Source of the DNA: Chitinophagales bacterium
GTDB lineage: Bacteria; Bacteroidota; Bacteroidia; Chitinophagales; Chitinophagaceae
Length of the DNA: 32,452 bases
Reading direction: 5' to 3'
NCBI GenBank assembly: GCA_020059395.1
Contig: JAGVCC010000338.1
Location: 1 to 32,452 of the forward strand
Both the position numbers and the translations under genes were made by a program. The notes beneath the pieces were generated by a model that was given only the letters and a program-made list of their open reading frames with translations, did not search any database and was not told the origin of the DNA. This document shows positions 14,859-26,655 of the stretch, in pieces (positions within the stretch are counted from its first letter, which is position 1; each line of letters begins with the position of its first letter).

Positions 14859-17800
14859 TTATCTTAACACTTCGGCACGCCCTATTGCTAAGCGGTTACC
14901 ATTAACATCCACCACTTCAATCCAGTAAACCCCGGTTCCGTGGTTTCTTAAATCAACATCCATTCTTGCATATGGTGCACCAATTGAGTAAGCTTGCGTA
15001 GATATACGCTTGCCTCTTGCATCATATACATTAATACCACGAGGTAAAACAACATTGTTTACTGCACTATGGTACCTAACTTGGAACTGCCCGCTGTTAG
15101 GATTAGGGTAGATGAATACCCTACCTGTAATAGAGTCACTTACTGTAACCATGTTGGAAGTGTTTACACAACCATTAACATCTGTTACACGTAAAGTATA
15201 ATCTCCAAGGCCATCAACATCTACAACCAATGTGCTTGCATTTGCACCACCCACAGTTGCACCGTTGCGTAACCATGTGTAAGTTGCAGCAGCAGGTGCT
15301 ACAGTAGAAGATATTGTTGTTTTAAGACCTGGGAACAGGCGTGTATAGGGAGCAACTCCTAAAACAATAGCTGGTAATGGATTAACCGTTAACCTGGCAT
15401 TGTTAGAAATTGCAGCGCCACAAGGTGCAGCACCTTTTACAGAGTCTCTGAATAACCAGCCGTTCATTGATACAGGTGGCGCAGTAATGGTTAACGTAGC
15501 TGTAGCAGCTCCGCTAAACACACCACCATTTGAAATTGTTACCCATGTACCCGGGTTACCATTTTGTGTACTGTATTGCCAGTTATGTGCAGGAGATGTA
15601 CCCGCTGCTGTAACCGTAAAGCTGGTTACTTTATCAGTACAAACAACAGCATTAACTGGTTGAGCAGTAATTGAAGCAGGAATATTTACCGTTACTGGAA
15701 CCAATGTGGCTGCTGAAGTACAACCAACAGTTGGGTATGCAAAAGTAATGTTCCAGCCACCACTTACATTACCATTATCACCAAACACATCATCTACAAT
15801 AAACAACCTCCAGGCACCATTAAAATTACCTGTAAAGCTGGCCAGTGCAGGGCTTGCGTCATTTAATGCGCCAGGTCCGGGAGCAGGATATGTATCTGCT
15901 GCACCATTATTAGTTGGCCTATAAGTGCCGGTAAGATTTGCAGCAGTAGTACTCATTGCAGCACCTGTACTGGTAAAGGTATAAGTAGCATTTGTGATAA
16001 TTCCTGTGCCACCTACATCACTCATAAGAGTTACATTGGTACCAGAAGGTGATTGAAGTACAACATCAATATCATCACTCCATGTGTGATTAACACCAGA
16101 CAATACTACTGATTGTACTCTTGCACCGCTTGTTGGTAACCCACTAACAGTAATGGCAGATGGATAAGGCGACGCTACGGCACCATCATTAATTGTTATA
16201 GCACTGTTGTTTGAGAATGTTGGGGTTGCATCAGGACCAATACCGTTTACTGTTACTGAGTAGGTGGTAGTAGCTGCTGGTTTTGCCCAAACAGTATCTC
16301 TTTGAGTACCGGCCACATATGGAATGGTACCTGCTGCATTAGTAAACAAACCTGCTGCAGGGCTCCACATTGCAGGAGATGCAGGAGTACCTACTGTGTA
16401 TGTAAGTCTTAATGACCATGAGGTTAATGTACCTTGGTCACCTGCAAAACCATCTCTCATGGCTAAAGTCCATGCGCCGTTACCATTTGTGCTGTTAAAG
16501 AATGCAGGCCATGTAGTAACATTAGGAATATTACCTGTGGGGCCACCAGGAGGTGCAGCTGCTGCACCAGCCAAATCTGCGGCAAAAGTACCAGTATAAG
16601 GGTTGCTTCCTGAGCTTAATGCTGCAGTACCAGTAGAACTGATAACTGTATTCACAAAGCCGGTTGTAGCACCCGTGCCTCCGCTTGCAGAAAGATAATA
16701 ATCAAGATTAATAACATTGTTGTTTGGAGCTCTTAACGCTATTGCAACATCACCAGCCCAAGTATGAGCCATGTTGAACGTTACAGCAGCACCAGTTACA
16801 ACAGCGTTAGCTGGTATACCACTTGCATTTATTGTATGTGTGGCACCTGCAGGGTTGTTATCTGGAACAACAACACTAATAGTACCTGAATTAAATGTGC
16901 TGTTTAGTGTAGTTGAAGTAGAGCTTGTAAGCCTTACTGCAGTATCTGTAGCACACATTACAACTGCACTTGGTGTTATTGTTGGTTTTGGCGGCATGTA
17001 ATTAACAAGTACTGTTGCAGTATTGCTGCAGCCTGTTGTTGAGTTAGTGCCGGTAATAGTATAATACTGGAAGGTTGAAGGTGCCGCATAAACAGTTGGT
17101 GTTTGCGTACCTAATACATAAGGAACAGTAGCTGTTGATTCAGTATACAAACCACCAGCAGGAGACCATGTATATGTTAATGGGTTGCCTGCACCACCAG
17201 GAGTGGTATAGTCAACAGTTATTGACCATGAAGTTAAAGTACCTAAATCGGGAGCACCTGCATCATACATAGCTAATGTCCATGCGCCATTTGGCACACT
17301 GTAAAGACTTGGCCATGTATTTACTGATGGAGTAAAGCCAACTGGTCCGCCAGCTAATGTAAAGCCAAAAGCAGAGAAAGTAGCCCCAACAAGATCAGCC
17401 CTGAAAGTACCAGTCCATGGTGATGTACCGGCATCAAGCCTTGTAGTACCAGCAGAACTTATTACTGTGTTTACAAAGTTAGCGCCTGGGTTATTGGTTG
17501 CATTTAAAATAGCGTCCAGATTTAATACTTGTCCGTTTGGCGCCTTTAATACCATTACTACATCACCAACATATGGGTGTGTAATATTTGTACTTACCCT
17601 TACACCTGTAATGGTTGCGTTTGCAGGAATACCAGCTACGTTGATGGTATTTTGTGCTGCAGTTGCAGGAGGGTTAGGGAAAGTACCTTCTGGAATGGCT
17701 ACGCTGATTGTACCAGAACTTGCTGTAACAGTACCAGGAACAGGAGGTAATTGAGAACCTGCTGTTATCTGCGTACCAGAAACACCTGCTATACCACCAC

Positions 17801-20591
17801 AAACCGGAGATGCTGGTGTATAGTCAATTACTGGTAAATCTTTAACTGTTAAAATAGCGGCAGCTGAATTTGCAGCCGGAGGACAAGTGCCTGAAACCAC
17901 CACACGGTAGCGATAGTTGTTCATGGCAGTTGTGGTTGGCGTAACAGTTAAAGTGGCAGTTGTTACACCTGAATATGGAGCACCGTTGTTCAGGTTAGTC
18001 CATGTAACACCTGCATCAGTGCTCAGCTGCCATCTATATGTAATACCTGCACCAGTTGCAGAAGCAGTAAATGTAGCTGGTTGGCCAGCACAAACAGATA
18101 TGCTTGCTGGCGGAACAGTAATTGCTGGTAACTGGTTAACATTAATAGTTAATGAGGCAGTAGTTTGACAACCGCCTGGGGCTGTTGCCAATACTGTGTA
18201 AGTTGTAGTTTGCATTGGAGATGCAGCCACGGGAACAGTAGTGGTTGTGCTTAAACCAGACGATGGCGTCCAGTAATAAGTGTATCCACCGGGCAATGGT
18301 GCCGCTGGTACATTAAACCTTATGCTCCATCCACCGCTAATAGAACCTAAATCGCCGCCAACATCATCAACTGCATATAGATTCCAGTTACCGTTTACAT
18401 TAGCTGCACTTCCAAATAAAGAAAGAGAAGGAGCAGCTTGCGTAACAGAACCAGGACCAGGAGCAATCCATGTATCTGGTGTACCACTATTGGTTGGCCT
18501 GTATGTTCCAGTTGGATTAGCTGCGGTTGTACTCATTACAGCACCTGCATCGCTAAATGTATAAGTAGCATTTGTTACAGCATTTCCACCACCAACATCA
18601 GACATCAATACAACATTTTGTCCGGTTGGAGATTGAACCAGTACGTCAACATCATTACTCCAGGTATGGTTGAAACCATTAAGTGTAACACTAACTACAG
18701 ATACACCTGTAGCAGGTAAACCACTTACTGCTATTGCAGATGGATATGGTGTAGCCGGACCTGAAGATGGTATTGCAATTGACCCTGTATTACTGAATAA
18801 CGGCAAAGCGGGAGCTCCTGTTACATTTAACAATGTAGGATCTCCGGCACAAAGTGTTGTGCTTGGATTTGAAGTAATCATTACAGGAGGAGTATTGGTA
18901 GCCAATACTGTTACCGTTGGGTTGCCACTGTTACCAGTACCCACACAACAAGGATTGTCTGATTGAACAACACTCACCAAAGTATATGAAGTGGTGACAG
19001 CAGGCGTTACAGGAATTAATGAACCACTAACGTAGTTAGTTACCGTAAATGCCGGGCCAACACTTGGCTGAATTCTTACATCGTATGCAGCACCATTACC
19101 ACCTGTAATATCAACTTTTAAGTTGGCAGTAGATCCTGTACAGGTAGTTATTGGTCCTGGAGTAAATGTGGTATAAACAACATCGTCAATACCAATATAA
19201 TCAGAATTAGCACCAGCCGGTCCACCGCTTTCTACAAAGTAGCGGAATGCTAAACGGCCAGATACACCGGCGTTAGGTAAACCAGATAATGTAACAGTGT
19301 ATTGAGTCCAGGCAGTTGGATAACCTGTACCTGTATAAGTAGGGTTAATATCAAGCAACAATGTTGTAAAATCACCCACACTTGTATTGCTTGTGCCAGC
19401 GTTAACACTTGTGCCATTAGTACTCATTCTTACCTGCAGCCTGTCAGGGAAAGTACCTGTGGTTGTTCTGGTAAAGAAAGAGAATCTGTCACCATTTTTA
19501 AGTGTTACGTTTGGCGTAAATAACCAGTTGCTAATAGTATTTGCACCGGTAGTATTATTAAAGTTAGCTGCGATATAGCCAGCACCACTATTAGCACCAA
19601 ACACCGCTGCATTACCTTGGAACCAACCAGTTGTACCAACCGGAGCGCTCAAATTTTGAGAAGCCCAGCCTGCTGGTAAAGGAACTACAGTATTAAATGT
19701 TTCGCTAAAAACGTTTGTGGCCACTGGAACACCACCCGCCTGACTTAAGACAGATGAAGTTGGTGGAACACAGGGAGGAGGAGGCGCACAATTGATGCCT
19801 GTAACAGTAATGCGGTATGAAGGACATTCTACCAAGTTACCCACACCACTTGCCACAAGAACGATGGTTGCATTTGCAGCCAAATTAAATGAATATGTTA
19901 CAGCCGGAGCACCAACCGGAACACTTGTACCACCATCAGCAAGATAGTTTGTACATACGTTAGCTGCGCTAAAACTGCCCGAATAAGCTGTTACAAAAAC
20001 ATCACCTACCTGTCCCACATTTTCATATGTTACAGTAACACACTGGGTAGCACAGGTAAGATTTTGCATGGTGTAGCTGTCAAAATAAACCGGCCCGGTA
20101 CCGTTTGGTCCAGGGCAAGCTTTAGGAGCCGCACATGTTGAAATAACACCCAGGCGAGCAATACGGTTTGCAATTGTAGGATCTGAAGCTGTAAGGCTTC
20201 CGTCGAACACACAAGTTGCAGCCGTTAAACTTGCAGTGGGAGGAATGGTTGAAGACGTAAAGCTTTCGCCAGCTGCCACAGCAGACTGCATCTTTTCTGC
20301 ATATTTGGCATTGATTGCGGGCACGTCTGAAACGTTTGCTGCGCCGCTGGCATTTGCGGTGCCGGTGCCGCCAAATGCCTGTTGCACCAACGCCTTTTTA
20401 GGGCCTGATGCCGCCTGAGTCGCTGAGGATTCCTTCGGTCGTTCCGTAGGCAACCCTTTCTTAGCGCTCGCCGGTTTCTGTAATCCCTCTTGTGCAAAAG
20501 AGGCCATTACAGAAATGCTCAAAACAATACTCATCAGTAAAGTTTTGAACAGAAACACCTTAAAGTTTTTAAGTGTAGCTGTTTTTTGCAT
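14859..20591 (-). CDS. Large secreted protein (1910 aa): signal peptide, adhesin-like (choice-of-anchor J) domain, four proprotein-convertase P-like domains, Ig/PKD-like linkers and a C-terminal T9SS sorting domain
   Basis: Signal peptide MQKTATLKNFKVFLFKTLLMSIVLSISVMASFAQ. Adhesin-like GWFQGNAAVFGANSGAGYIAANFNNTTGANTISNWLFTPNVTL. Four segments ending GGWSIRF/TSWSITV/TSWSLRL/GGWNITF. C-terminal VFIYPNPNSGQFQVRY...GVYWIEVVDVNGNRLAIGRAEVLR. Confidence 0.88.
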   Translation of the reverse strand: MQKTATLKNFKVFLFKTLLMSIVLSISVMASFAQEGLQKPASAKKGLPTERPKESSATQAASGPKKALVQQAFGGTGTANASGAANVSDVPAINAKYAEKMQSAVAAGESFTSSTIPPTASLTAATCVFDGSLTASDPTIANRIARLGVISTCAAPKACPGPNGTGPVYFDSYTMQNLTCATQCVTVTYENVGQVGDVFVTAYSGSFSAANVCTNYLADGGTSVPVGAPAVTYSFNLAANATIVLVASGVGNLVECPSYRITVTGINCAPPPPCVPPTSSVLSQAGGVPVATNVFSETFNTVVPLPAGWASQNLSAPVGTTGWFQGNAAVFGANSGAGYIAANFNNTTGANTISNWLFTPNVTLKNGDRFSFFTRTTTGTFPDRLQVRMSTNGTSVNAGTSNTSVGDFTTLLLDINPTYTGTGYPTAWTQYTVTLSGLPNAGVSGRLAFRYFVESGGPAGANSDYIGIDDVVYTTFTPGPITTCTGSTANLKVDITGGNGAAYDVRIQPSVGPAFTVTNYVSGSLIPVTPAVTTSYTLVSVVQSDNPCCVGTGNSGNPTVTVLATNTPPVMITSNPSTTLCAGDPTLLNVTGAPALPLFSNTGSIAIPSSGPATPYPSAIAVSGLPATGVSVVSVTLNGFNHTWSNDVDVLVQSPTGQNVVLMSDVGGGNAVTNATYTFSDAGAVMSTTAANPTGTYRPTNSGTPDTWIAPGPGSVTQAAPSLSLFGSAANVNGNWNLYAVDDVGGDLGSISGGWSIRFNVPAAPLPGGYTYYWTPSSGLSTTTTVPVAASPMQTTTYTVLATAPGGCQTTASLTINVNQLPAITVPPASISVCAGQPATFTASATGAGITYRWQLSTDAGVTWTNLNNGAPYSGVTTATLTVTPTTTAMNNYRYRVVVSGTCPPAANSAAAILTVKDLPVIDYTPASPVCGGIAGVSGTQITAGSQLPPVPGTVTASSGTISVAIPEGTFPNPPATAAQNTINVAGIPANATITGVRVSTNITHPYVGDVVMVLKAPNGQVLNLDAILNATNNPGANFVNTVISSAGTTRLDAGTSPWTGTFRADLVGATFSAFGFTLAGGPVGFTPSVNTWPSLYSVPNGAWTLAMYDAGAPDLGTLTSWSITVDYTTPGGAGNPLTYTWSPAGGLYTESTATVPYVLGTQTPTVYAAPSTFQYYTITGTNSTTGCSNTATVLVNYMPPKPTITPSAVVMCATDTAVRLTSSTSTTLNSTFNSGTISVVVPDNNPAGATHTINASGIPANAVVTGAAVTFNMAHTWAGDVAIALRAPNNNVINLDYYLSASGGTGATTGFVNTVISSTGTAALSSGSNPYTGTFAADLAGAAAAPPGGPTGNIPNVTTWPAFFNSTNGNGAWTLAMRDGFAGDQGTLTSWSLRLTYTVGTPASPAMWSPAAGLFTNAAGTIPYVAGTQRDTVWAKPAATTTYSVTVNGIGPDATPTFSNNSAITINDGAVASPYPSAITVSGLPTSGARVQSVVLSGVNHTWSDDIDVVLQSPSGTNVTLMSDVGGTGIITNATYTFTSTGAAMSTTAANLTGTYRPTNNGAADTYPAPGPGALNDASPALASFTGNFNGAWRLFIVDDVFGDNGNVSGGWNITFAYPTVGCTSAATLVPVTVNIPASITAQPVNAVVCTDKVTSFTVTAAGTSPAHNWQYSTQNGNPGTWVTISNGGVFSGAATATLTITAPPVSMNGWLFRDSVKGAAPCGAAISNNARLTVNPLPAIVLGVAPYTRLFPGLKTTISSTVAPAAATYTWLRNGATVGGANASTLVVDVDGLGDYTLRVTDVNGCVNTSNMVTVSDSITGRVFIYPNPNSGQFQVRYHSAVNNVVLPRGINVYDARGKRISTQAYSIGAPYARMDVDLRNHGTGVYWIEVVDVNGNRLAIGRAEVLR

Positions 20592-22864: not shown

Positions 22865-23983
22865 CTATGGCGTGGTAAAATCAAATTCATACTGCTCATT
22901 TAAATAACGTTCACATTTTTTCCAGTAGGCAAAAAAAGAGGGATAATAACCAGTAACCTGAGGAAACATCCATTCATACTCTTCTGCCACACCTCTGTAA
23001 TGCATAAAAGCAGTATGTTTTTTATAATAAATTTGTTGTCCTTTGTACTTTGTTGCCAGTGTATCAAATTCACCAACAAAAATTTGCAGCCCTTTAATAT
23101 TTTTTGCCAACTCTAATACAAATAAAAGTACTTTTTCACTTACAGGATATTTACAAAAATGTGTTGGTTCCAGCAATAATACCCTGTTTGCTTTTTCATT
23201 TTTATGCCAAAGCGGATCTAAATTATAAGAGTTAAAAATAAGCAGCGGATAATCGTTTTCCAGCACAGGCACAACACTATGCGGTAAAACTGTTTGCAAT
23301 GCAATTTTTTCATGCTGTTGTAACACAGAAGGTATAGCTGCATCTGTTAAGGCCTCATAACTTGTATCTAAAAAAGTGTTCCGCTGATTGGTGTGTGTAT
23401 ACCGGTTAATATTCTCCTGATTACAATAATATTTTTTGCCCGATAAAGTACCGGCTACCCATTGCCAGCTTAAAGTATTGCTGGCAATATCACCATCTAA
23501 TAAGTGGTAATACATCCATTGCGAAGGCTGCAGCCAGTGTGCTTTTGCAATATTGCATATTATGCTGCTTACATACATGCGTACATGGTTGTGCATGTAG
23601 CCAGTGGCGTAAAATTCTTTAATAAGATTGTCAATTATTGATATGCCGGTTGCGGCATTAAGCACCGCAGTAATCATGTAGTGGTGCTGCGTCTGTAATT
23701 GCATATGTTTTAAATCTGTAAAAACTGCATTGCCTTTATTTTGCCATATACGTTGCCAGTACTCCCGCCATGCCAGCTCTTGTAAAAACTTTTGCACTTC
23801 ATAGGGTTTATGCTTTTGTAATACGTATTTTTTTATTTGCGCCAAACTAATTACGCCTCTTGAAATATATGGTGATAAATAACTTACATCACCATTAATA
23901 AAATTTCTTGTTTTGGCATATCGTACAGGCTGCAGCTTCTGCAACTGTTGGATTATTTCAGTATAGTCTGTTACAAAATTCAT
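22865..23983 (-). CDS. Photolyase/cryptochrome FAD-binding-domain protein lacking the usual N-terminal antenna domain
   Basis: FLQELAWREYWQRIWQNKG, MHNHVRMYVSSIICNIAKAHW, LLDGDIASNTLSWQWVAGTLSGKKYYCNQENINRYT. The FAD domain starts at the N-terminus and is followed by an alpha/beta-looking C-terminal region. Confidence 0.85.
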   Translation of the reverse strand: MNFVTDYTEIIQQLQKLQPVRYAKTRNFINGDVSYLSPYISRGVISLAQIKKYVLQKHKPYEVQKFLQELAWREYWQRIWQNKGNAVFTDLKHMQLQTQHHYMITAVLNAATGISIIDNLIKEFYATGYMHNHVRMYVSSIICNIAKAHWLQPSQWMYYHLLDGDIASNTLSWQWVAGTLSGKKYYCNQENINRYTHTNQRNTFLDTSYEALTDAAIPSVLQQHEKIALQTVLPHSVVPVLENDYPLLIFNSYNLDPLWHKNEKANRVLLLEPTHFCKYPVSEKVLLFVLELAKNIKGLQIFVGEFDTLATKYKGQQIYYKKHTAFMHYRGVAEEYEWMFPQVTGYYPSFFAYWKKCERYLNEQYEFDFTTP

Positions 23984-24256
23984 TTACCGCTTGCTTATTT
24001 TATTGTGGCTAATGGTTTTTTGCAGGCTGCATTTAAAACGGCCCACAGCGTTATTTCTTAAAGCTGCATGTTTTGTTGTTCTGCCATTGGTACGTTTACG
24101 CCACATTTTAAAACTGCTGCTTTTCATTTGCTTTCGCATTAATTCAATTACTTCTTTTTCTTTAAGGCCAAACTGTATTTCAATAGCATCAAATGTGGTA
24201 CGGTCTTCCCAGGCCATTTCAATTATGCGGTCAATATCTTTTTCTGTTAATATCAT
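23984..24256 (-). CDS. TIGR03643/DUF2805 family protein
   Basis: [66 protein letters not shown]. The ATG at 24256 forms an ATGA overlap with the upstream DUF2256 stop; the track start at 24283 is less likely. Confidence 0.85.
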
Positions 24257-24402
24257 TTGTGTAAATGTTTTGATGTGCGGCATTTATCGCTGCAATATCT
24301 TACTTCATCCCAAACAGCTGCCCATTTTTTGCGCCATGCAAAAGGGCGCTTGCATACAAGGCAGATTTTCTGTGGCAGGTTTTCTTTTTTTATTTGTTTC
24401 AC
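24253..24402 (-). CDS. DUF2256 family zinc-ribbon microprotein (49 aa, GTG start)
   Basis: Manual translation: [49 protein letters not shown], with CxxC and CxxxC. Not in the ORF track. It starts 6 nt after the upstream photolyase-like stop. Confidence 0.88.
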
Positions 24403-24408
24403 TAAAAA

Positions 24409-25887
24409 TTATTTATCCAGCTGCTGCAAAAAATTTTCGGCAGCGGTTATATGTGCCTGTTGTTTTGATGCAGGCATTTTATCAAATGTTTTTATAAGCA
24501 TGCCCAGCCTTGGATTTTTTAAAAAGAAATTCCTGTGCACATGCATAAAACGCCAAAATAATCCATCCCACACATTGCACCATGCGCCTTTTTTATAATC
24601 ACTCATTTTAAGCAAATAATTGCTGCCGCTTATATAAGGCTTTGTGGTCATCAGGCCGCCATCGGCAAACTGCGTCATCCCATATACATTGGGCACCATC
24701 ACCCAATCATAACTGTCAACAAACAATTCCATAAACCATCTGTACACTTCATCCGGGTCAAACTCACAAAGCAGCATAAAATTGCCCAGCACCATCAGTC
24801 TTTCAATGTGGTGGCAATAGCCTGTTTCCAGCACTTTTTTTATGGTGTTATCTATAGGTTCAATGCCGGTGCTTCCTGTCCAAAACGATGCAGGAATTTT
24901 ACGACTAAACCCCCAATAATTTTTTGTACGCTGCTGCACACCCTCACGTGTGTAAACAATTTTTATAAACTCCCGCCAGCCAATTATTTGCCTTATAAAG
25001 CCTTCCAGTGAATTAAGGGGAATGTTATTTTTATTGGCAAACTGCAGCGTTGCGTCTATTATTTGCTGTGGGTTTAATAATCCAATGTTTAAAGCAGGCG
25101 TGAGAACGGCGTGGTTTAGATATTTTTCCTTGGCCACAAGTGCATCTTCATAAATACCAAAATCAAGCAGGCGGTTTTCTAAAAAATCATACAGCCAATT
25201 CTCTGCATCTTTAGATGTTACAGGATAAATAAAATTTGCAGTGCTGCCATAGTTATCTTTAAAATTTTCATTTACATACTCAATGGCAGCAGTAACATAT
25301 TTATTTGCTGCAGGAAATTTTAATGCAGGCGGTTGTAAGCCTGCAGGATACTTTTTGCGGTTATCTGCATCAAAGGTCCATTTACCACCAACCGGCTCGT
25401 TGTTAACTTCAATTAAAAGCTGCCGTTGTTTGCGCTGCTCAATATAAAAAGCAGTTTGAAAATATGTTTTCTTCTTTTCGAAGTAAGCAGCTCCTTCCTC
25501 TGCAGAATTTAAAAAATTAGGGCTGCGGTGTTTTTTAATGGCAACTTTATGTTTAGCGCAGGCAATGGCAATGCGTTTATAAAGCCAGTCATCGGCAACA
25601 TCACAAATATTAATTATTGTTATTTTTTGGCTGTGTAAATACGGTATCAGTTTTCTCACATCACTCAACCCACTTGCTGCTTCAATGTAATTTACGGTAA
25701 CATTATTTTTTTGTAATACTTCTTTATAAAACTGCATACTGGCCCGGTGCAATACCAATTTTTGTTTGTGAAAATTATAATGGTTGAAGAACAATACTTC
25801 TTCTATCAGATAAACAACACTATTTGGGGCTACAGCAGGATGCTGCTGAAACAACTGGTGGGGAAAAATTAAAACTGCCTCCTTCAT
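24409..25887 (-). CDS. COG3046 / FeS-BCP-type (prokaryotic 6-4) cryptochrome/photolyase family protein
   Basis: HHIERLMVLGNFMLLCEFDPDEVYRWFMELFVDSYDWVMVPNVYGMTQFADGGLMTTKPYISGSNYLLKMSDYKKGAWCNVWDGLFWRF; HHxxR motif present. Confidence 0.9.
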   Translation of the reverse strand: MKEAVLIFPHQLFQQHPAVAPNSVVYLIEEVLFFNHYNFHKQKLVLHRASMQFYKEVLQKNNVTVNYIEAASGLSDVRKLIPYLHSQKITIINICDVADDWLYKRIAIACAKHKVAIKKHRSPNFLNSAEEGAAYFEKKKTYFQTAFYIEQRKQRQLLIEVNNEPVGGKWTFDADNRKKYPAGLQPPALKFPAANKYVTAAIEYVNENFKDNYGSTANFIYPVTSKDAENWLYDFLENRLLDFGIYEDALVAKEKYLNHAVLTPALNIGLLNPQQIIDATLQFANKNNIPLNSLEGFIRQIIGWREFIKIVYTREGVQQRTKNYWGFSRKIPASFWTGSTGIEPIDNTIKKVLETGYCHHIERLMVLGNFMLLCEFDPDEVYRWFMELFVDSYDWVMVPNVYGMTQFADGGLMTTKPYISGSNYLLKMSDYKKGAWCNVWDGLFWRFMHVHRNFFLKNPRLGMLIKTFDKMPASKQQAHITAAENFLQQLDK

Positions 25888-25910: not shown

Positions 25911-25938
25911 TTTATTGTTTACTGTTGAAAACAATAAA
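25911..25938. promoter_or_regulatory. Perfect 10-bp inverted repeat in the divergent photolyase-operon/SDR spacer
   Basis: TTTATTGTTT-ACTGTTGA-AAACAATAAA, immediately before the SDR ATG at 25939. Confidence 0.55.
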
Positions 25939-26655
25939 ATGGAAAGCTTAAAAGGTAAGAATATTTTACTGACGGGTGCCACCGGCGGAATTGGAGCTGC
26001 CACTGTAAAATTATTATCAGCTGGAGGTGCCCAACTTTTTTTAACAGGGCGAAATTTGGACAAATTGAAAGCTGTTGCCACTGCCAATAACATACCAGAA
26101 GAAAGGGTTTTTGTAGCAGACCTTTCTAACCCAGACTCGGTTGAACAACTCCGGCAGCATTTTTTTCAGCTGAACAGCCAAATTGATATTTTAATAAACG
26201 CAGCCGGCGTGGGTATTATTAAGAATATGGATACGCTGAGCGAAACTGATTTTCTGCGTTCACTTAATTATAATTTGTACGCTCCTTTTTTATTATTAAA
26301 GGCGTTTTTACCTGCCATGAAAGAACTAAAAAAAGGGCTCATCATTAATATTCCTGGTGTGTTGGGCAAAGTACCTATGGCAGGTGCTGCGGCATATTGT
26401 GCCAGCAAATACGGTTTGGTGGGCATGCTGCAGAGTGTGAGGGAAGAAGTAAAGCGCACTGAAATACGTATTACTAATTTATTTCTGGGTGGCACCAACT
26501 CTGCTTTTTGGGATACGATTGATTTAAAAATACAGCGGGAAAAAATGGTACAAGCCGAAGAAGCAGCCAAAGCTATTTGGTTTTTATGCCAGCAACCGGC
26601 AAGTGGTGTGGTAAATGAAATGGTTTTACAGCCCTTTAATCATCAGGCAATTTAA
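25939..26655 (+). CDS. SDR family NAD(P)-dependent oxidoreductase
   Basis: GKNILLTGATGGIGAATVKLLSAGG, INAAG, YCASKYGLVGM (YxxxK). The ORF-track start at 25915 is TTG; the ATG at 25939 is preferred. Confidence 0.9.
   Translation: MESLKGKNILLTGATGGIGAATVKLLSAGGAQLFLTGRNLDKLKAVATANNIPEERVFVADLSNPDSVEQLRQHFFQLNSQIDILINAAGVGIIKNMDTLSETDFLRSLNYNLYAPFLLLKAFLPAMKELKKGLIINIPGVLGKVPMAGAAAYCASKYGLVGMLQSVREEVKRTEIRITNLFLGGTNSAFWDTIDLKIQREKMVQAEEAAKAIWFLCQQPASGVVNEMVLQPFNHQAI

Follow-up and report, generated by a model that had tools for sequence, protein, structure and literature searches.

How a photolyase can begin directly with its FAD domain, and what its C-terminal part then is, are the questions raised by one gene in a 32,452-nucleotide stretch of Chitinophagales DNA (contig JAGVCC010000338.1; the whole stretch is called the window below). 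The gene lies on the minus strand and starts with ATG according to ORF analysis (Table 1), and its product has two domains in the order opposite to that of a textbook photolyase.

Domain order of the photolyase

The 372-aa protein matched a single Pfam family, FAD_binding_7 (PF03441), at residues 66-189 with a score of 79.2 bits (cut-off 27; E 3.5e-22), and no family was matched in residues 190-372. When PDB was searched by phmmer, residues 22-179 were aligned with the FAD domain that standard photolyases have at their C-terminus. An N-terminal antenna domain is therefore absent, and both placements agree with the preliminary description, in which the protein started directly in the FAD domain. 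All the motifs quoted there are present in the protein, and so is the tail behind the FAD domain, whose length had been given as about 150 aa and was corrected to about 177 aa (residues 197-372).

The AlphaFold2 (AF2) model of the full protein, made with 74 sequences (pLDDT 95.7, pTM 0.92), was helical in residues 7-213 and alpha/beta in residues 247-365, and about 215 columns of it were aligned with known photolyases by Foldseek. By this fold match and the FAD_binding_7 score above cut-off, the protein is a member of the photolyase/cryptochrome superfamily. The tail was composed of a linker or cap (residues 197-244) and an alpha/beta domain of about 125 aa (residues about 245-365). Strands at residues 247-250 and 266-271 were followed by helices, a strand at 299-303 and a helix, then by strands at 318-321 and 332-334 and a long helix at 350-365, and this pattern was kept when the tail was folded alone (pLDDT 91).

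Table 1. Features of the photolyase gene and of its gene run in the window
Feature	Position	Strand	Basis
Gene for the inverted-order photolyase (372 aa), with the FAD domain ahead of the antenna-like alpha/beta domain	22865..23983	-	ORF, PF03441, homologues, AF2 model
FAD-binding catalytic domain, residues 20-196	23396..23926	-	PF03441 E 3.5e-22, Foldseek, active-site alignment
Signature WQWVAGTLSGKKYYCNQENI, residues 173-192, in place of WQWVAGTGTDxxPYFRxFNP of ordinary photolyases	23408..23467	-	FAD-first groups aligned with class I
Linker with short helices (residues 197-244), where conservation was lowest; mean column identity 0.47	23252..23395	-	AF2 model, conservation
Shortened antenna-like domain of alpha/beta (HUP/Rossmann-like) type at the C-terminus, residues 245-372	22868..23251	-	AF2, HHalign, Foldseek, conservation
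TIGR03643/DUF2805 small protein	23984..24283	-	PF10985 E 4.5e-37, TIGR03643 E 6e-37
DUF2256 small Cys-rich (zinc-finger-like) protein	24253..24402	-	PF10013 E 1.7e-22
DPRP-type prokaryotic (6-4)-like photolyase, normal order, first gene of run	24409..25887	-	PF04244 E 2.2e-55 and PF03441
SDR oxidoreductase, divergent, 27 bp from the DPRP photolyase	25915..26655	+	PF00106 E 2.4e-41

A scan of bacterial genomes gave 80 related loci, far more than expected by chance, most of them near-full-length matches with 42-65% identity; they were mainly from Bacteroidota, with Acidobacteriota and a few other groups also represented. Since the layout was common to these homologues, 73 of which could be used in full length (357-394 aa), it is not an accident of assembly. 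Mean column identity among the 73 was 0.68 in the FAD core, 0.62 in the C-terminal domain and 0.47 in the linker; conservation of the C-terminal domain thus comes close to that of the FAD core, and the tail is under selection. The gene was present in 17 of 297 sampled Bacteroidota genomes, and viral contigs yielded no relatives when either the Deinococcus protein or the family alignment was used as query.

Origin of the C-terminal domain

In HHalign comparisons, the tail family matched class I antenna domains at E 0.013, and matched an antenna profile merged with Deinococcus tails at E 0.0034 over 137 of 144 columns. The merged profile ranked first of 29, the best of 27 other families reaching E 0.068, and 2 of 300 column shuffles did equally well. 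The DPRP antenna alone gave E 0.014, yet with just 22 out-of-register columns, so that single HHalign values near 0.01 carry little weight.

More of the argument for antenna ancestry is carried by the Deinococcus relatives than by the tail's own matches. The Deinococcus tail matched the class I antenna at E 1.9e-7 (prob 93.7) in HHalign, and Deinococcus tails matched PF00875 at E 7.2e-4 and 2.3e-4, under the curated cut-off. On a plasmid of Deinococcus sp. QL22 (L125:696-1987), the FAD domain and then the antenna domain were encoded by two overlapping genes. The window-family tail matched the Deinococcus tail alone weakly (HHalign, E 0.03), and PF00875 was matched in none of 74 family tails. 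Sporadic Pfam matches (Ty3_capsid, TagH_C and others) were seen in single tails; members did not share them, and they were attributed to chance.

Foldseek of the predicted tail against PDB, following a check proposed beforehand, gave no significant antenna match; nothing was below E 0.18, and photolyase was absent from the top 50. The best PDB matches (E 0.18 and above) were PPAT, universal stress protein and NaMNAT, which belong with photolyase antenna domains to the HUP group of alpha/beta folds. In the viral library the top match was an annotated fowlpox photolyase (E 0.014, probability 0.97, 115 columns), an entry of 200 aa that may cover any part of a photolyase.

The HHalign path started at strand 1 (residues 246-250), passed through VLLLEP / PVFIFD and was co-linear as far as the final helix (FFxYWKK). 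Because the whole antenna domain was matched in order, the domain order is inverted, with no permutation inside the antenna domain. The preliminary description had seen a likeness to the second half of an antenna domain and had considered a circular permutation. Neither idea was borne out; permutation within the domain was ruled out by the co-linear alignments, and the domain would have changed place in one piece and become shorter, with no cutting and permuting. Its broader proposal, a domain rearrangement and not simple loss, was supported by the alpha/beta tail of the AF2 model, by the antenna as best profile match, by the photolyase as best viral fold match and by the antenna-like domain in the same place in Deinococcus. 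Descent of the Bacteroidota-type tail of the window protein from the photolyase antenna domain is thus likely, though not proven.

It is unlikely that loss of the antenna was followed by fusion of the FAD domain to an unrelated HUP/Rossmann-like alpha/beta domain, the antenna likeness then being a general likeness of fold. Such a fusion would suit the PDB fold search of the tail, which gave HUP/Rossmann-like proteins and none of them significant, and the failure of PF00875 in the 74 tails. It would also suit the stand-alone FAD-domain photolyases of Acidobacteriota (L167, L168, L169), which indicate that a bare FAD domain can persist; these are about 260 aa long with a Cys-rich end, have LLDGNPPPN in place of LLDGDxASN, and were not accompanied by an antenna-like gene in the flanking stretch examined. 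However, a recognisable antenna domain occupies the same place in the Deinococcus relatives (encoded in one of them by an overlapping ORF of its own), the antenna ranked first among the 29 profiles over its full length, and a photolyase was the top viral fold match. A decayed or truncated photolyase, or an assembly or frameshift artefact, might be thought of from the missing N-terminal antenna domain, but its probability is negligible given the intact ORF, the same boundaries in 73 full-length homologues from independent genomes, the conservation of both domains and the confident AF2 model.

Catalytic residues and relation to known photolyases

The departure of WQWVAGTLSGKKYYCNQENI from the usual photolyase motif, already remarked on in the preliminary description, was confirmed by alignment: class I has WQWAAGSGxDAAPYFRxFNP at this place, and WQWVAGTLSGKKYYCNQENI is a signature of the family, with Q189 and N191 invariant in 113/113 relatives. 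The motif is met again in Deinococcus as ..KPYIMNQANIEKY. The catalytic and lesion-binding residues W72, N132, M136, D163, N169, W173 and W175 were also invariant in the 113 relatives, and we take their E. coli equivalents to be W277, N341, M345, D372, N378, W382 and W384. W150, presumably equivalent to E. coli W359, was kept in 105 of the 113, and Trp was absent at the W306 position in the same alignment. Asn and Met at positions 132 and 136 are the CPD-type pair. The residues of the FAD pocket were conserved at the sequence level. The cysteines of a [4Fe-4S] cluster were absent, with HTNQRNTFLD standing where Deinococcus has a Cys-rich motif after NQ.NI, and the FeS-cluster type was ruled out for the window protein by these missing cysteines. 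In the DASH test (TIGR02765) the protein scored 73.3 bits, below the cut-off of 317.05. On the basis of its conserved residues the protein is predicted to repair CPDs, to use a Trp dyad and to lack an FeS cluster; the dyad W173-W150 without a third Trp agrees with the one reported for the D. shibae NewPHL (PMC8948257).

It is probable that the gene encodes a functional inverted-topology (NewPHL/SPL/Phr6-like) CPD photolyase with a relocated, shortened antenna domain. The N-terminal helical domain would bind U-shaped FAD and flip the cyclobutane pyrimidine dimer into its pocket, and light-excited FADH- would donate an electron, whereby the dimer is split. The two-Trp chain W173-W150, perhaps together with cellular reductants, would keep the flavin reduced. 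The ordinary antenna alpha/beta domain would have been moved whole to the C-terminus and shortened, and it would most likely seal the catalytic domain where the FAD lies. Conservation of the lesion residues points to CPD specificity, and by analogy with NewPHL the substrate is probably CPD in single-stranded DNA. In line with a single-stranded-DNA role, as a substitute for DASH, a DASH photolyase above cut-off was found in 1/16 genomes with the inverted gene and 44/90 without it (one-sided Fisher p 0.0009, ignoring phylogeny), among the 106 of 198 Bacteroidota genomes in which any photolyase was matched; when all 198 were compared, significance was not reached (p 0.083).

A tree was built on the FAD domain, with DPRP left out and the root placed by assumption. 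In a first tree with DPRP as outgroup, the long DPRP branch fell inside the Bacteroidota group, probably by long-branch attraction, and that tree was discarded. A 100/100 branch set the FAD-first proteins, namely the Bacteroidota type, the alphaproteobacterial NewPHL type (assigned by taxon and architecture), the Deinococcus type and the stand-alone type, apart from the normal-order photolyases (class I/III/DASH). The simplest reading is that the FAD-first state arose once. The window family was a clade with 99/98 support, and its grouping with the NewPHL type, the probable sister group, was not firmly supported (93/58).

Inverted-order photolyases are a kind already described in 2020-2022, and the window protein belongs to this NewPHL/SPL/Phr6 kind. 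Reverse domain order was published for Phr6, and the FAD domain is also first and the antenna last in the split Phr4/Phr5 of Synechococcus/Cyanobium (PMC9426592), a layout which in marine Synechococcus is like that of the Deinococcus QL22 split genes. For NewPHL/SPL, PMC13274461 gives the inverted order, and CPD repair by the described inverted relatives; the sources are Emmerich et al. 2020 and Xu et al. 2021, as cited in PMC13274461, PMC9649867 and PMC8948257. NewPHL/SPL, e.g. the Dinoroseobacter shibae NewPHL, likewise have FAD first, a non-canonical C-terminal domain last and no N-terminal antenna, and stand on the same side of the 100/100 branch. In contrast to NewPHL, the window family forms a separate clade with WQW and NQENI, not WRW, and its tail gave no profile match with the Z-type C-terminal domain of the alphaproteobacterial NewPHL (HHalign, E 0.47). 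Phr4 and Phr6 have FeS-cluster cysteines, whereas the window protein has no such Cys cluster, and shortening or divergence has put its tail out of reach of PF00875. Class I/III CPD photolyases share with it the FAD fold and the electron-transfer and lesion-binding residues, but have the antenna first and a third Trp, and lie across the 100/100 branch. The DPRP/FeS-BCP prokaryotic (6-4) photolyase, a neighbour in the same gene run and of the same superfamily, differs by its antenna-first order, its (6-4) type and a distant FAD domain. No paper on the Bacteroidota clade was found in the literature searched, which did not include the two founding NewPHL/SPL papers, and the Bacteroidota form, with a shortened tail, operon partners and no FeS cysteines, seems to be a subfamily that has been little characterised.

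Photolyases with inverted domain order are widespread and form a graded series, with a full antenna-like tail in Deinococcus, split genes in Deinococcus QL22, the FAD domain alone in Acidobacteriota, a divergent tail in alphaproteobacteria and a shortened conserved tail in Bacteroidota. This series makes it testable how an antenna domain gets moved, reduced or lost, and bears on the proposal which places such short photolyases near the root of the superfamily.

Gene neighbourhood

The inverted photolyase is the last gene of a minus-strand run, preceded in order by the DPRP-type photolyase, DUF2256 and TIGR03643/DUF2805. For TIGR03643 the more likely start is an internal ATG (24254-24256), which would overlap the DUF2256 stop as ATGA, and its TAA abuts the ATG of the inverted photolyase. 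The two small genes (23984-24402, minus strand) sit between two photolyases, and they are paired in many others of the 80 loci too. TIGR03643 was a neighbour of the inverted photolyase in 48/80 loci and DUF2256 in 31/80, and in 33 loci neighbour clustering placed a true DPRP gene no more than 3 kb away; the DPRP query had hits in 64 loci, many of these hits being cross-matches to the inverted photolyase itself. The divergent SDR arrangement was repeated at related Chitinophagaceae loci. No paper in the literature searched mentions DUF2256 or TIGR03643/DUF2805 together with photolyase, and the conserved operon gives a first functional context for both.

It is rather doubtful whether the Bacteroidota/Acidobacteriota clade is a distinct subclass, in which a cut-down, pigment-free antenna would serve as FAD-capping or partner-binding module and form a joint repair unit with TIGR03643, DUF2256 and the DPRP-type photolyase, and with flavin reductase in some relatives. 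Quite improbable is a bacterial cryptochrome-like photosensor without repair activity, whose C-terminal domain would signal with TIGR03643 and DUF2256 as partners. The tight conserved linkage with small proteins of unknown function, the rhodopsin and beta-carotene dioxygenase neighbours of some relatives and the conserved tail could be taken for such a sensor, but the full set of CPD-lesion residues is invariant, a second photolyase adjoins in the window and in many relatives, and described inverted relatives repair CPDs (PMC13274461).

Flavin reductase-like genes of two families (15 and 11 loci) were located no farther than 3 kb from the inverted photolyase, and often next to it, in loci including L039, L040, L054, L060, L069, L072, L076 and L078, and might be a source of reduced flavin. 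Genes for bacteriorhodopsin-like proteins and for beta-carotene 15,15'-dioxygenase were observed within about 3 kb in L014, L016, L017, L018, L033 and L035, suggesting light-related gene islands. Elsewhere in the window (14859-20591, minus strand), a gene encodes a secreted protein of 1910 aa in which proprotein-convertase P domains and a cleaved-adhesin domain are combined with a Por secretion tail.
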